Positions 6,729 to 13,169 of a stretch of 35,263 nucleotides of DNA are shown one piece after another (within the stretch, counting starts at the first letter, position 1; every line of letters begins with the position of its first letter). Location: IMG/VR virus record IMGVR_UViG_3300046318_000156, positions 1 through 35,263 of that record. One strand, 5' to 3'. A program made the translations under genes and the position numbers. This DNA is from a virus. The notes beneath the pieces were generated by a model that did not search any database, was not told the origin of the DNA, and worked only from the letters and a program-made list of their open reading frames with translations.

Positions 6729-6907
6729 TTTGTTTCTCCCTTGATAAGTTCGATTAGTTCCTCTGACCCAAAACTTTCCCACGCTGGCGGAAACCATTCA
6801 ATTTGTCTCCAAATAGTGCTGAAATCATATTCTTCTAACAACTTGATAATGCGTTCCTGCTCCCAAGCAAGACCAGCCCTGAATCCTTTGGTGTATTCGG
6901 TATCCAT
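6725..6907 (-). CDS. EQERIIKLLEE-family small protein
   Basis: A 60-residue protein starting MDTEYTKGFRAGLAWEQERI, then IKLLEEYD, with a variable tryptophan-rich middle and a C-terminal ELIELIKGETK. The pattern G-x-x-x-G-x-x-x-E-Q-E-R-I followed by a LIKGE end is shared with at least two other genes nearby. The ATG shares a base with the nrdH stop (TAATG). Confidence 0.65.
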   Translation of the reverse strand: MDTEYTKGFRAGLAWEQERIIKLLEEYDFSTIWRQIEWFPPAWESFGSEELIELIKGETK

Positions 6908-7155
6908 TAATTCTCACCAAGACTCTTGATGTGGCGAGCAAGTGACTGAATCTTGTCCAACCGGAAACCAGACCAAGCCTTAGTATCAGTAGTCACAATA
7001 GGAGCTGCAAGAAGCCCCTGAGCCTTAAAGCCCTCCAAAACTAATGGGTTCTCCTCAAGAGACTGCTCCTCATAAACAATGCCCAACTTATCAAACTGCT
7101 TCTTGGTCATGTCACACTGCACACACATACTCTTAGTCCAAATAGTTACCTTCAT
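6907..7155 (-). CDS. nrdH: NrdH-type glutaredoxin
   Basis: An 82-residue thioredoxin-fold protein. It opens MKVTIWTKSMCVQCDMTKKQ: the active-site CVQC is at 11-14. Later TxAAPIV (with the cis-proline) and WSGFRLDKI match the NrdH signature WSGFRPDKI with leucine for proline. NrdH passes electrons to class Ib ribonucleotide reductase and is typical of actinobacteria and their phages. No phage reductase is present in this window, so it would serve the host enzyme. The start overlaps the preceding stop (TAATG). Confidence 0.9.
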   Translation of the reverse strand: MKVTIWTKSMCVQCDMTKKQFDKLGIVYEEQSLEENPLVLEGFKAQGLLAAPIVTTDTKAWSGFRLDKIQSLARHIKSLGEN

Positions 7156-8072: not shown

Positions 8073-8501
8073 TTACACAACCGTTATAAACACCTTGCAA
8101 CCAGGGGTCGGGTAAGTATCAGTAGTCGTCCCACACCAACGCTTCTTAGCCACAATGTCCACGATCAAAGAATCATCCACAATAGCCCCTGCACGAGTCA
8201 ACGAATCACCCACAGCACGAATGTAATGATCAAGATCAGGTTTAGAGCCAGGATAAACAGGATGCTTAGGTTTAGCAGGGCGGGCAATGAAAAACGTAAC
8301 CTCTAAACGAATCGGCTGATCAAACGGAACAATCTGCTCCAACGAGTGCATAGCCTGACGAGCTGCCTCAGTAACCGCCAAACGCCACTCCGGAAGCCTC
8401 TTATTAGCCTCAACGAGAACAGCCCTCCCACCACGCACATAAGCCGTTTTAGAACCTTGTGGGGCAGGAGAGCCGTCAACGAGAAAAAATAAATCCTTCA
8501 A
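8073..8501 (-). CDS. RusA-type Holliday junction resolvase
   Basis: A 142-residue endonuclease of the RusA family, which cuts four-way DNA junctions made by recombination or replication. It opens with the typical VDGSPAPQGSK. The metal-binding aspartates lie in KPDLDHYIRAVGDSL (Asp89 and Asp91) and IVDDSLI (Asp110), followed by the family's lysine pair KK (119-120). It starts directly at the SSB stop and ends the recombination operon, so it would resolve branched products before packaging. Confidence 0.92.
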   Translation of the reverse strand: MKDLFFLVDGSPAPQGSKTAYVRGGRAVLVEANKRLPEWRLAVTEAARQAMHSLEQIVPFDQPIRLEVTFFIARPAKPKHPVYPGSKPDLDHYIRAVGDSLTRAGAIVDDSLIVDIVAKKRWCGTTTDTYPTPGCKVFITVV

Positions 8502-8909
8502 TTAAAAAGGTGCATCATCCATGTTAATAGCAATAGGAGTCCAAGACTCAGGAACCAAATCCTCAGGCTTAAACTCAACCTTCTTCTGCTCCCGTACAAC
8601 ACGCTCAATCTTGTTAGCCACAACATCCAACGCAACACCTAACGATCCATCACGCTTCGCATAAGTCCTAAACACAAACGAACCATGAACCTCAACAGGC
8701 GTACCCTTCACAAACTCAAAAGGATTCAACTCCTCAAAAGAAGTCACATTAAACCACATAGTCTCGCCATTCTCCCACTCACCAGAAGCGTTCTTCTTAG
8801 AAGGAGTAGACCCAACACGTAACACATAATACATTTTGCCAGCCTTAGAAACCTTAGACTCAACATCAGCCCCAAGATTCCCACGCACAACAATTTCACA
8901 CTTAGCCAT
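8502..8909 (-). CDS. ssb: Single-stranded DNA-binding protein
   Basis: A 135-residue OB-fold protein: VVRGNLGADVESKVSKAGK, YVLRVGSTPS, WENGETMWFNVTSF, VKGTPVEVHGSF follow the SSB pattern. It ends NMDDAPF, the acidic hydrophobic tip through which SSBs bind partner enzymes. I chose MAKCEI at 8909, with GAAAGAG upstream; an upstream ATG at 8936 in the same frame would add nine residues. It sits between the annealing protein and RusA genes, as in many recombination modules. Confidence 0.88.
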   Translation of the reverse strand: MAKCEIVVRGNLGADVESKVSKAGKMYYVLRVGSTPSKKNASGEWENGETMWFNVTSFEELNPFEFVKGTPVEVHGSFVFRTYAKRDGSLGVALDVVANKIERVVREQKKVEFKPEDLVPESWTPIAINMDDAPF

Positions 8910-8953
8910 AGCAGCTCTTTCCATAGTCCTGAACAAGTCAGGGTACTACAACA

Positions 8954-9241
8954 CTACTCCCCATCAATGACATCTACAAGTTCAATATGATGCGGATTCA
9001 CACAATCCCGATGACCACACAACCGAACCCCAGGCAACAACAAACCACCATTCACCATCGGATTATCCTCCAAATCAAAATCACCACGCCAAGGCACACA
9101 CCGACTAGACCCATACTGAATACTCAACGCCGGACGCATACGACACGACACACACAACACCACCTGCTGACGGCGTTTAACCAGAGGAACCTCCCAAGAG
9201 AGACCACACCTCTTACACAACACACGATTATCATCCACCAC
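8954..9241 (-). CDS. Zinc-ribbon / HNH-like protein
   Basis: A 95-residue protein with a GTG start. Two CxxC pairs (CKRC at 9-12 and CVSC about 20 residues on) form a zinc ribbon. The C-terminal end, LCGHRDCVNPHHIELV, matches the last part of HNH domains in actinophages (C-x-N-P-x-H-x-x-L), but the first histidine part is weak. It may be a degenerate HNH protein or a DNA-binding protein. No ribosome site precedes the GTG, and a TGA lies five codons upstream in frame, so its start is uncertain. It lies directly downstream of the long non-coding stretch. Confidence 0.65.
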   Translation of the reverse strand: MVDDNRVLCKRCGLSWEVPLVKRRQQVVLCVSCRMRPALSIQYGSSRCVPWRGDFDLEDNPMVNGGLLLPGVRLCGHRDCVNPHHIELVDVIDGE

Positions 9242-9248
9242 ACAAGCG

Positions 9249-9582
9249 TAGCGTAATCACAGGGAAAGGCTCAAGAGGGTAGAAATGGCCATGTTGCGAC
9301 CATCTCAAACCACAGGTATAAGGACTGTCAGGTTTTCTAATGTGCTTATCCTCACGGGTAAAGCCATCTACGCCATATGTTTAATCAGCTACAAGGATGC
9401 TAGGTAGATACGTTTTAGCACCGCCAATTAAACTCTGTTCTACTCTCAAGAACTCTTACCTGATCTAAGGCTTCACAATTACAGGTACGCCAAAGAGACA
9501 CCATCTGACGGCCTCTATCTCCGACTGTGAATCGAGAGCTGGGTTTTAAAGTAGCCCAACGGTTAAATAACCTCTACTTGAA
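9249..9582 (-). ncRNA. Candidate structured non-coding RNA
   Basis: A strong promoter would start a minus-strand transcript near 9582, which then runs about 340 nt without any supportable frame. Complementary segments are frequent: 9574-9579 with 9549-9554, enclosing a 5-bp hairpin (9561-9572); 9555-9560 with 9538-9543, which crosses the first pair and makes a pseudoknot; 9526-9531 with 9472-9477; 9404-9409 with 9366-9371; and a hairpin 9307-9335. It could be a long leader of the downstream genes or a free-standing RNA. I could not match it to a known family, and no terminator separates it from the next gene. Confidence 0.5.
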
Positions 9583-9588
9583 GATTTG

Positions 9589-9618
9589 ATTATAGGTGAT
9601 AAAAAACGAAGTGTGCAA
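9589..9618 (-). promoter_or_regulatory. Strong promoter ahead of the non-coding stretch
   Basis: Minus-strand TTGCAC (9613-9618) and a perfect TATAAT (9589-9594) are 18 bp apart. It sits just after the HNH gene stop at 9620. It is the best -10 box of the right kind in the recombination region and would drive the RNA and the genes from 9241 to 8073. Confidence 0.7.
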
Positions 9619-9619
9619 G

Positions 9620-9958
9620 TTAAAAGTGAAAGTCGTAGTTTGGCAGCTCTGTTCTACCAAAATCATCATCCAGCAAAAACCATTTGCCGTTATGCCAAAC
9701 AGGGATAGCAGCTGCGTCCTGCCAGTGTTCCAGTTTCCAACCCATGCCCTTAGCCAACTTAGCGGCATCAGCGTTCATCTCAATCTGGCAATTAAACCAA
9801 GAACAGAGCACAATTATATTGGATGGCTTGTCCTTCTTATGAGAGCCACCCATACCCCTATTAGAACGGTGCTGAGGAACAAGCGTGTTGTCGTTTGTGC
9901 CACAGTGCAAACACTCAAGATCACGGTCAAGGAACTTAGCCCACTGCTTCTGACTCAT
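9620..9958 (-). CDS. HNH endonuclease
   Basis: A 112-residue protein. CLHCG near residue 18, then LVPQHRSNRGMGGSHKKDKP, NIIVLCSWFNCQIE and further helices match small HNH endonucleases of actinophages (motif P-x-H-R-x-x-R-G-M-G-G). I chose the ATG at 9958, which overlaps the preceding stop by four bases. It probably nicks DNA. It lies directly upstream of the strong promoter and non-coding stretch, so it could be a free-standing homing gene. Confidence 0.8.
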   Translation of the reverse strand: MSQKQWAKFLDRDLECLHCGTNDNTLVPQHRSNRGMGGSHKKDKPSNIIVLCSWFNCQIEMNADAAKLAKGMGWKLEHWQDAAAIPVWHNGKWFLLDDDFGRTELPNYDFHF

Positions 9959-10170
9959 TCTTCCCACGGTGGCTCCGGACTCCTAGCAGGATCAATCAAA
10001 CCAGTAGCCATAAAACCAATCGTGGCAGTCTCAACCCGTGAACTATCAATAATGGCAAGGTTGCCCTCAGGGCGACACTTGTGATTAGTACGCCACTGAT
10101 TCAACAACTTAATCTCATCAGACCGTTCAGCCTGGAAACTAGCACCGCACGAACACGCTTCAGAGATCAT
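9955..10170 (-). CDS. Zinc-ribbon protein
   Basis: A 71-residue protein with SEACSCGASFQAERSDEI near the start and HKC further on, which makes a CxC...HxC zinc site seen in many phage proteins. The C-terminal end is proline-rich (DPARSPEPPWEE). I chose the ATG at 10170, inside the end of the membrane micro-gene; earlier TTG and GTG codons in frame exist. Function unknown. Confidence 0.65.
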   Translation of the reverse strand: MISEACSCGASFQAERSDEIKLLNQWRTNHKCRPEGNLAIIDSSRVETATIGFMATGLIDPARSPEPPWEE

Positions 10171-12863: not shown

Positions 12864-12882
12864 ATGGCTATGACATCAGCAA
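12854..12882 (-). promoter_or_regulatory. Leftward promoter of the exonuclease operon (candidate)
   Basis: Minus-strand TTGCTG (12877-12882) and TATGTT (12854-12859) are 17 bp apart, with the start of transcription near 12847, about 27 bases ahead of the exonuclease ATG. It overlaps the whiB promoter, so RNA polymerase could not use both at once. Confidence 0.4.
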
Positions 12883-13169
12883 CCAACGACAGACTTCTAA
12901 TTGCCTTACACAAAGCAATAGAGGAAGAAGGCGATGTCCCGTGCCAGCAAGTCCCGCACATCTTCTATCCAGAAGATCAGCCTAAATGGAACGACAGACA
13001 TTTTGAGACGCGGGAAGCCAAAGCCATCTGTGGGACGTGCCCTGTGCTAAAAGAGTGCTTTACCTACGGCGTGGTCAGTGCCCAACCATACGGTATTTGG
13101 GGTGGTACAAGTGCTGAAGATCGTAAAGACATGAAGTCGAAACGCCGTAAATACAAAACTAACGATTAG
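12870..13169 (+). CDS. WhiB-family iron-sulfur transcription regulator
   Basis: A 99-residue WhiB-like protein, one of only two genes on the plus strand. The four cluster-binding cysteines are at 25, 54, 57 and 63 (VPCQQV; ICGTCPVLKEC), followed by the family turn GIWGGTSAEDRK and a basic tail (KSKRRKYK). WhiB proteins bind a [4Fe-4S] cluster and the principal sigma factor. I chose ATG 12870 because it coincides with the predicted start of transcription; ATG 12864, two codons earlier, lies next to the -10 box. Phage WhiB proteins can act on host or phage promoters; here it may affect the overlapping divergent promoter. Confidence 0.92.
   Translation: MTSATNDRLLIALHKAIEEEGDVPCQQVPHIFYPEDQPKWNDRHFETREAKAICGTCPVLKECFTYGVVSAQPYGIWGGTSAEDRKDMKSKRRKYKTND

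Follow-up and report, generated by a model that had tools for sequence, protein, structure and literature searches.

Locus organization

What a stretch of 378 bases without an evident gene encodes in a phage genome is the question raised by positions 9242–9619 of the window, the complete 35,263-nucleotide viral DNA analysed here (IMG/VR record IMGVR_UViG_3300046318_000156). An initial annotation made from this single sequence had described the stretch as non-coding, rich in complementary segments, beginning with a strong promoter and flanked by two HNH-type genes. Overall this observation is confirmed, and the comparison with homologues makes the case for an RNA stronger than a single sequence allowed; from that sequence only, the case would be weak.

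The boundaries 9242–9619 are right, and no plausible gene was found between the stop codon of the upstream HNH gene (HNH1) and the downstream ORF (HNH2). A coding gene in the gap was rejected, as indels of 1, 2 and 5 nt among the homologues break the frame and no ORF is kept across the alignment. The HNH character ascribed to both flanking genes stands for HNH1; the product of HNH2 is recognizable only as a small zinc-ribbon protein with a weakly HNH-like C-terminus (Table 1). The HNH2 ORF spans 8954–9241 (minus strand) with the GTG at 9238 as likely start, and its AlphaFold model is of moderate confidence (mean pLDDT 75.7) and has no match in the PDB. The genes ssb and rusA come after HNH2. 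Neither tRNA nor tmRNA was detected in the window by ARAGORN. On the opposite strand, an ORF at 12864–13169 (+) looks WhiB-like by eye, which fits an actinobacterial host.

The predicted RNA is encoded on the minus strand of the gap and is about 300–330 nt long: its start is placed at about 9583–9581, helices cover 9578–9282 and conserved sequence reaches to about 9249.

Table 1 Features of the RNA locus (positions in the window)
Feature	Position	Strand	Basis or remark
HNH1, upstream gene, HNH endonuclease	9620–9967	-	PHROG 740, E 3.7e-20
TATAAT, -10 box of putative RNA promoter	9589–9594	-	Sequence; identical in L003, L004, L005
Structured RNA gene (predicted)	9249–9582	-	Nine-phage A4 alignment, pair counts, model matches
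Pseudoknot 1	9539–9578	-	Helix 1 (9578–9574/9554–9550), hairpin 2 (9572–9569/9564–9561) inside, helix 3 crossing
Helix 3, crossing helix 1	9559–9555/9543–9539	-	Pair counts
Hairpins 4 (9538–9530/9526–9519) and 5 (9516–9510/9502–9494)	9494–9538	-	Five pairs changed on both sides
Helices 6 (9486–9482/9462–9458) and 7 (9453–9449/9441–9437)	9437–9486	-	Pair counts
Long hairpin, helices 8–10	9433–9429/9383–9379, 9427–9423/9389–9385, 9422–9416/9402–9396	-	Pair counts
Pseudoknot 2, loop of hairpin 8–10 with downstream strand	9410–9404/9371–9365	-	Pair counts
Helix 12, after pseudoknot 2	9364–9361/9347–9344	-	Pair counts
Terminal hairpin 13, GAGAUGGUC/GGCCAUUUC (9306–9298/9290–9282)	9282–9306	-	Invariant in A4
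TACGCT, -10-like TANNNT box for HNH2	9245–9250	-	Exactly 6 nt before GTG 9238
HNH2, downstream gene, small zinc-ribbon/HNH-like protein, 94 aa	8954–9238	-	Weak HNH-like C-terminus, E 0.011

Distribution and conservation

Protein and DNA-pattern scans of IMG/VR recovered the stretch in eight contigs beyond the window (L002, L003, L004, L005, L010, L011, L014 and L038), giving nine viral contigs that carry the RNA at 74–87 % identity. Many others (L021–L023, L025–L028, L031–L035) were found by these scans to possess the HNH2 gene and to lack the stretch. A covariance search among related phages added a tenth copy in contig L024, which is unrecognizable by sequence and was missed by a sequence-only profile: the model of the 5' domain matched L024 at 2622–2716 with 36.5 bits (E 8e-8 in 138 kb). 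Helices 6, 8, 10 and 13 as well as pseudoknot 2 have counterparts there in the same order (by eye), and the model of the middle domain detected hairpin 10 only, weakly. The sequence-only model yielded one copy per record in nine records and no second site within those records. Named phage and plasmid records gave no match to the RNA.

Between the window and L010, L011 and L014, the RNA is 79–81 % identical while the flanking genes share only 50–61 % identity in DNA (44–62 % in protein), which argues for selection on the RNA. Natural selection has maintained it in at least ten related viruses, the hosts of which are probably actinobacteria, since the named relatives of the neighbouring genes sit in phages of Pontimonas, Arthrobacter, Microbacterium and Mycobacterium. 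The genome of a cultured relative, Pontimonas phage phiPsal1, contains two unannotated gaps of about 500 nt (about 1536–2076 and 8441–8943), neither with a match to the RNA models, and an unannotated HNH2 homologue at 6756–6998.

Secondary structure and covariation

In the nine-sequence A4 alignment, a model of 13 helices with two pseudoknots is paired in 98.6 % of 698 cells. Changes on both sides were counted in 26 pairs (61 such cells), and the covariation score, calculated from a small set of nine sequences from few lineages, amounts to 0.314 as compared to a shuffle mean of 0.158, with none of 500 shuffles reaching 0.314. Upon sliding the partners by 1–3 columns, the score drops to at most 0.065 and the model collapses. 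The complementary segments noticed initially are real, and so is the crossing pair close to the 5' end, which corresponds to helix 3 crossing helix 1. Minimum free energy was dropped as evidence for the fold, the folding energy of the single sequence being unremarkable (z -0.56 on the minus and +0.64 on the plus strand).

The exchangeable 5' domain comprises pseudoknot 1 and hairpins 4 and 5. Within the former, both-side changes are found in four of the five pairs of helix 1 (AGNNG/CNNCU), in two of four pairs of helix 2 and in two of five pairs of helix 3, which has U-U in four phages. A long-range pairing of this domain with 9368–9361 looked compensatory in some phages, failed in L010 and was dropped. 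Further downstream, the loop of helix 7 (UGAGAGU) is invariant, and the region of helices 8–12 (9344–9433, minus strand) holds about ten pairs changed on both sides, with a helix order still recognizable in L024. The pairing AUCUAC/GUAGAU of pseudoknot 2 is replaced by AUCUGC/GCAGAU in L010 and L011, and hairpin 13 reads AAGGCUGGCU/AGCCAGUUUU instead in L024.

The strand of the RNA follows from its G-U pairs, which account for about 61 paired cells (summed by hand) and would become A-C mismatches on the opposite strand. As G-U is conserved in all nine sequences at alignment pairs 31–56, 297–317 and 302–312, the RNA strand is the minus strand. Conservation of the fold, together with compensatory changes on one strand, points to a structured non-coding RNA gene. 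Of the previous interpretation, a functional folded RNA that has a pseudoknot close to its 5' end and starts at a promoter-like -10 box is supported.

Promoter-like elements and the start of HNH2

The combination TTGCAC-18-TATAAT, originally taken for a strong promoter, is present on the minus strand (9618–9613 and 9594–9589). Its perfect -10 box is placed some 10 nt ahead of helix 1, at the same distance in the window, L003, L004 and L005; the description as strong holds only in part, given the poor -35 box and 12 promoter-like sites in the region versus 11.5 expected, i.e. no excess over chance. In the other RNA-bearing phages, a TANNNT near the same place occurs close to chance level because the stop codons TAA and TAG fall there, and L024 has no -10-like box before the RNA. 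The assumption that each copy possesses its own -10 box was rejected, conservation being restricted to four. A search for a canonical terminator at the RNA 3' end gave none, so that read-through into HNH2 is possible.

A TANNNT box followed after six nucleotides by ATG or GTG precedes HNH2 in all 10 RNA-bearing phages and in none of 11 RNA-less ones (background 1.5 %); the sequences of L010, L011, L014, L038 and L024 read TGNTANNNT at this box. No Shine-Dalgarno sequence was detected before HNH2 in the RNA-bearing phages (best duplex +0.6 to -0.9 kcal/mol); the RNA-less phages, by contrast, do have one (duplex -3.4 to -8.5 kcal/mol). TANNNT is the dominant promoter element of Mycobacterium tuberculosis, about one quarter of the genes of which are leaderless, and both traits are characteristic of mycobacteria as well as of other actinobacteria (PMC3898074). 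Based on the box and the lack of a Shine-Dalgarno sequence in all RNA-bearing phages, HNH2 is probably leaderless and separately promoted. A start of HNH2 driven by the RNA in a Shine-Dalgarno- or IRES-like manner was considered for the fixed distance, and the simpler leaderless TANNNT promoter was preferred. With a box of its own for HNH2, the RNA need not belong to the HNH2 mRNA, and a free-standing RNA gene becomes more plausible than a leader of ssb and rusA.

Cargo slot and mosaicism

The boundary between HNH1 and the RNA constitutes an insertion slot which is empty in the window, L004 and L038. Elsewhere it harbours a gene for a Dcm methylase in L003, L010 and L014, for a Mom-type modification protein in L005 and L011, for an HNH_3/homing-type nuclease in L002 and for a GIY-YIG nuclease in L024. 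The slot is a hot spot for cargo. The association of the RNA with HNH elements proposed at first finds a counterpart in the nucleases of L002 and L024; since the slot also takes Dcm, Mom or nothing, there is no fixed link between the RNA and a nuclease.

The RNA itself is mosaic. The 5' domain of the window is 88–90 % identical to that of the distant L010 and L011 and only 66–74 % to that of the close relatives L002–L005, while the middle of the RNA displays the opposite pattern, which shows an exchange of the 5' domain between lineages. The backbone of L024 corresponds to that of L010/L011 (85–93 %) as far as the upstream HNH gene and once more from the final bases of the RNA region onwards; the intervening cargo and RNA have been replaced. 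Recombination at the hot spot, either of homing type (cf. PMC2988022) or ordinary homologous, explains this mosaic without a role of the RNA in mobility.

Several further observations concern the slot. The Dcm cargo comprises two ORFs that overlap in different frames, alike in two diverged phages (L003, 6369–7728; L010, 4928–6248; minus strand), with the N-terminal catalytic part preceding the target-recognition/C-terminal part; this possibly reflects a programmed frameshift or a two-subunit enzyme. A conserved leader precedes the different nuclease cargo of L002 (6349–6430; HNH_3) and L024 (2050–2125; GIY-YIG), consisting of a hairpin CCCC(A/T)G...C(A/T)GGGG, then GACCGACTAAnAAGGAGTCAGTATG, with the Shine-Dalgarno sequence within a GACU/AGUC hairpin. 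The RNA 5' domains of these two contigs have UAUAAGUCAA in common, and nuclease, leader and 5' domain may travel together. Among RNA-less contigs (L021, L023, L022, L025–L028, L031–L035), the gene before the HNH2 homologue varies (SAM-synthetase-like, Mom-like, acetyltransferase-like or DnaB-like by eye), indicating a variable slot in the wider phage group. An arrangement without RNA or cargo is represented by Microbacterium phage ValentiniPuff (2040–2788), in which an annotated HNH endonuclease overlaps the HNH2 homologue, followed by SSB.

Proposed role of the RNA and alternative explanations

The explanation favoured here, with somewhat better than even confidence, is a free-standing structured phage RNA with a two-pseudoknot body and its own promoter, acting in trans, HNH2 being transcribed separately. 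Transcription on the minus strand would start from the promoter with the TATAAT box, the transcript would fold into the two-pseudoknot body, and HNH2 would give rise to a separate leaderless mRNA, driven by its own TANNNT box. The conserved fold, its strand, the promoter-like boxes, the exchange of the 5' domain and the cargo slot are computational results. From these we infer that the RNA accumulates as a discrete molecule and has a partner; its most likely mode would be to act in trans, as RNA or ribonucleoprotein, during the early or recombination phase. The nearly invariant 3' half may represent the body that meets a conserved partner (a host or phage protein, or the ribosome), with the exchangeable 5' pseudoknot domain as the variable part. 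Several points speak against a free-standing RNA: read-through into HNH2 is possible, good support for the promoter is confined to the window and its nearest relatives, the set of nine sequences is small for covariation, and all copies found adjoin the upstream side of HNH2, which would fit a role in cis too.

The main rival, rated as rather unlikely, is a cis-acting leader, i.e. a 5' UTR controlling the HNH2-ssb-rusA transcript; such control might involve attenuation, put-like antitermination or an interaction with SSB or the zinc-ribbon protein HNH2. It would account for the position of all ten copies directly upstream of HNH2 at constant distance, for the lack of a terminator after the RNA and for ssb and rusA coming next. 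However, HNH2 homologues exist without the RNA, no alternative terminator/antiterminator structure is visible, and dependence of HNH2 translation on the leader was not found: the leaderless-type box and the lack of a Shine-Dalgarno sequence indicate independence from it. The initial suggestion of a leader for SSB and RusA is weakened likewise; the RNA does adjoin HNH2 with ssb and rusA beyond, but HNH2 possesses a promoter box of its own.

A mobile element of ribozyme or intron type, whose upstream slot would carry homing endonuclease genes, is considered improbable. Nucleases located immediately upstream of the RNA in L002 and L024, the exchange of cargo and RNA as a block in L024 and the mosaic 5' domain would agree with it, but the element is intergenic, after a stop codon and without a split exon, most copies are accompanied by Dcm, Mom or no cargo, and intronless homing with co-conversion explains the mosaic without RNA activity; moreover, it matches neither group I or II introns nor HEARO or self-cleaving ribozymes in Rfam searches, including those with permissive thresholds. 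The least probable alternative is an element acting as DNA (origin or recombination hot spot) with incidental RNA folding. Recombination and replication genes are nearby and neighbouring cargo has been exchanged repeatedly; the G-U pairs conserved in nine of nine sequences, however, are possible only for a minus-strand RNA, and the long-range pseudoknots covary.

The RNA represents a compact, well-delimited structured RNA family with strong covariation in actinobacterial phages, beside recombination genes. Its natural domain swaps point to what to test in the RNA, and the locus marks the exchange of DNA-modifying and DNA-cutting cargo beside a conserved RNA. A far bolder and correspondingly improbable proposal is a new class of RNA machine whose invariant body and exchangeable 5' domain, the latter conferring specificity, would cooperate with the nuclease or modification genes of the slot; if true, RNA and swapped cargo would, beyond mere adjacency, serve inter-phage competition, anti-restriction or defence.

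Relation to known RNAs and systems

The RNA family is absent from RNA libraries: covariance searches of Rfam with the window, L024, L038 and the nine short copies yielded nothing above chance. For group I and group II introns, no match was obtained in these sequences at gathering thresholds or at E up to 5–10, nor for HEARO and self-cleaving ribozymes at gathering or permissive thresholds, nor for the models of GOLLD, ROOL, OLE, tmRNA and RNase P. Group I/II introns, HEARO, tmRNA and known ornate RNAs were rejected on these grounds, and the remains of an intron, as once contemplated for this element sitting after a stop and before a start codon, find no support.

The only resemblance noted within Rfam concerns EGFOA-assoc-1 (RF02970), the 3' part of the consensus of which aligns with the 5' domain of L038, sharing a GGUU/AACC hairpin, an AUAAA linker, a C-C-CGCUU..AGCG-G-G hairpin and GGC-GUUAnAG-GCy. 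The score of 9.2 bits (E 3.6) versus a gathering threshold of 224.5 is at chance level and covers only positions 145–250 of the 250-nt model; a profile test reached at best about 1 in 1000 against shuffles prior to correction for 4227 families and was not significant thereafter. There was no match in the window or the nine copies together, pattern scans of genome and viral contigs with the consensus gave unrelated coding or intergenic matches or nothing, and BLAST in phages and plasmids produced short chance matches only. Membership was rejected, the resemblance of the 5' domain being not significant and a lead only.

To our knowledge, large structured RNAs are rare in phages, and the known examples, GOLLD and ROOL, are still without an assigned function. 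Like the present RNA, GOLLD and ROOL are large, intricate, phage-encoded RNAs with pseudoknots, and GOLLD likewise combines a conserved 3' part with a variable 5' part (PMC12286853). Unlike these RNAs of 660–800 nt, the present one is half the size or less (about 330 nt) and is not located near tRNA genes.

In the T4 gene 32 leader, SSB autoregulation works through a 5' pseudoknot of the gene 32 mRNA, to which gp32 binds. Here, too, an H-type pseudoknot lies ahead of an SSB gene; in contrast to T4, an extra gene lies in between, the RNA is far larger and a leaderless-type promoter box belongs to the next gene itself. The slot, in turn, resembles T4-like intronless homing, in which free-standing HNH or GIY-YIG genes lie beside conserved sequence and flanking markers are exchanged (PMC2988022); here, however, it is an RNA that forms the conserved neighbour, and the slot accepts Dcm and Mom just as well.
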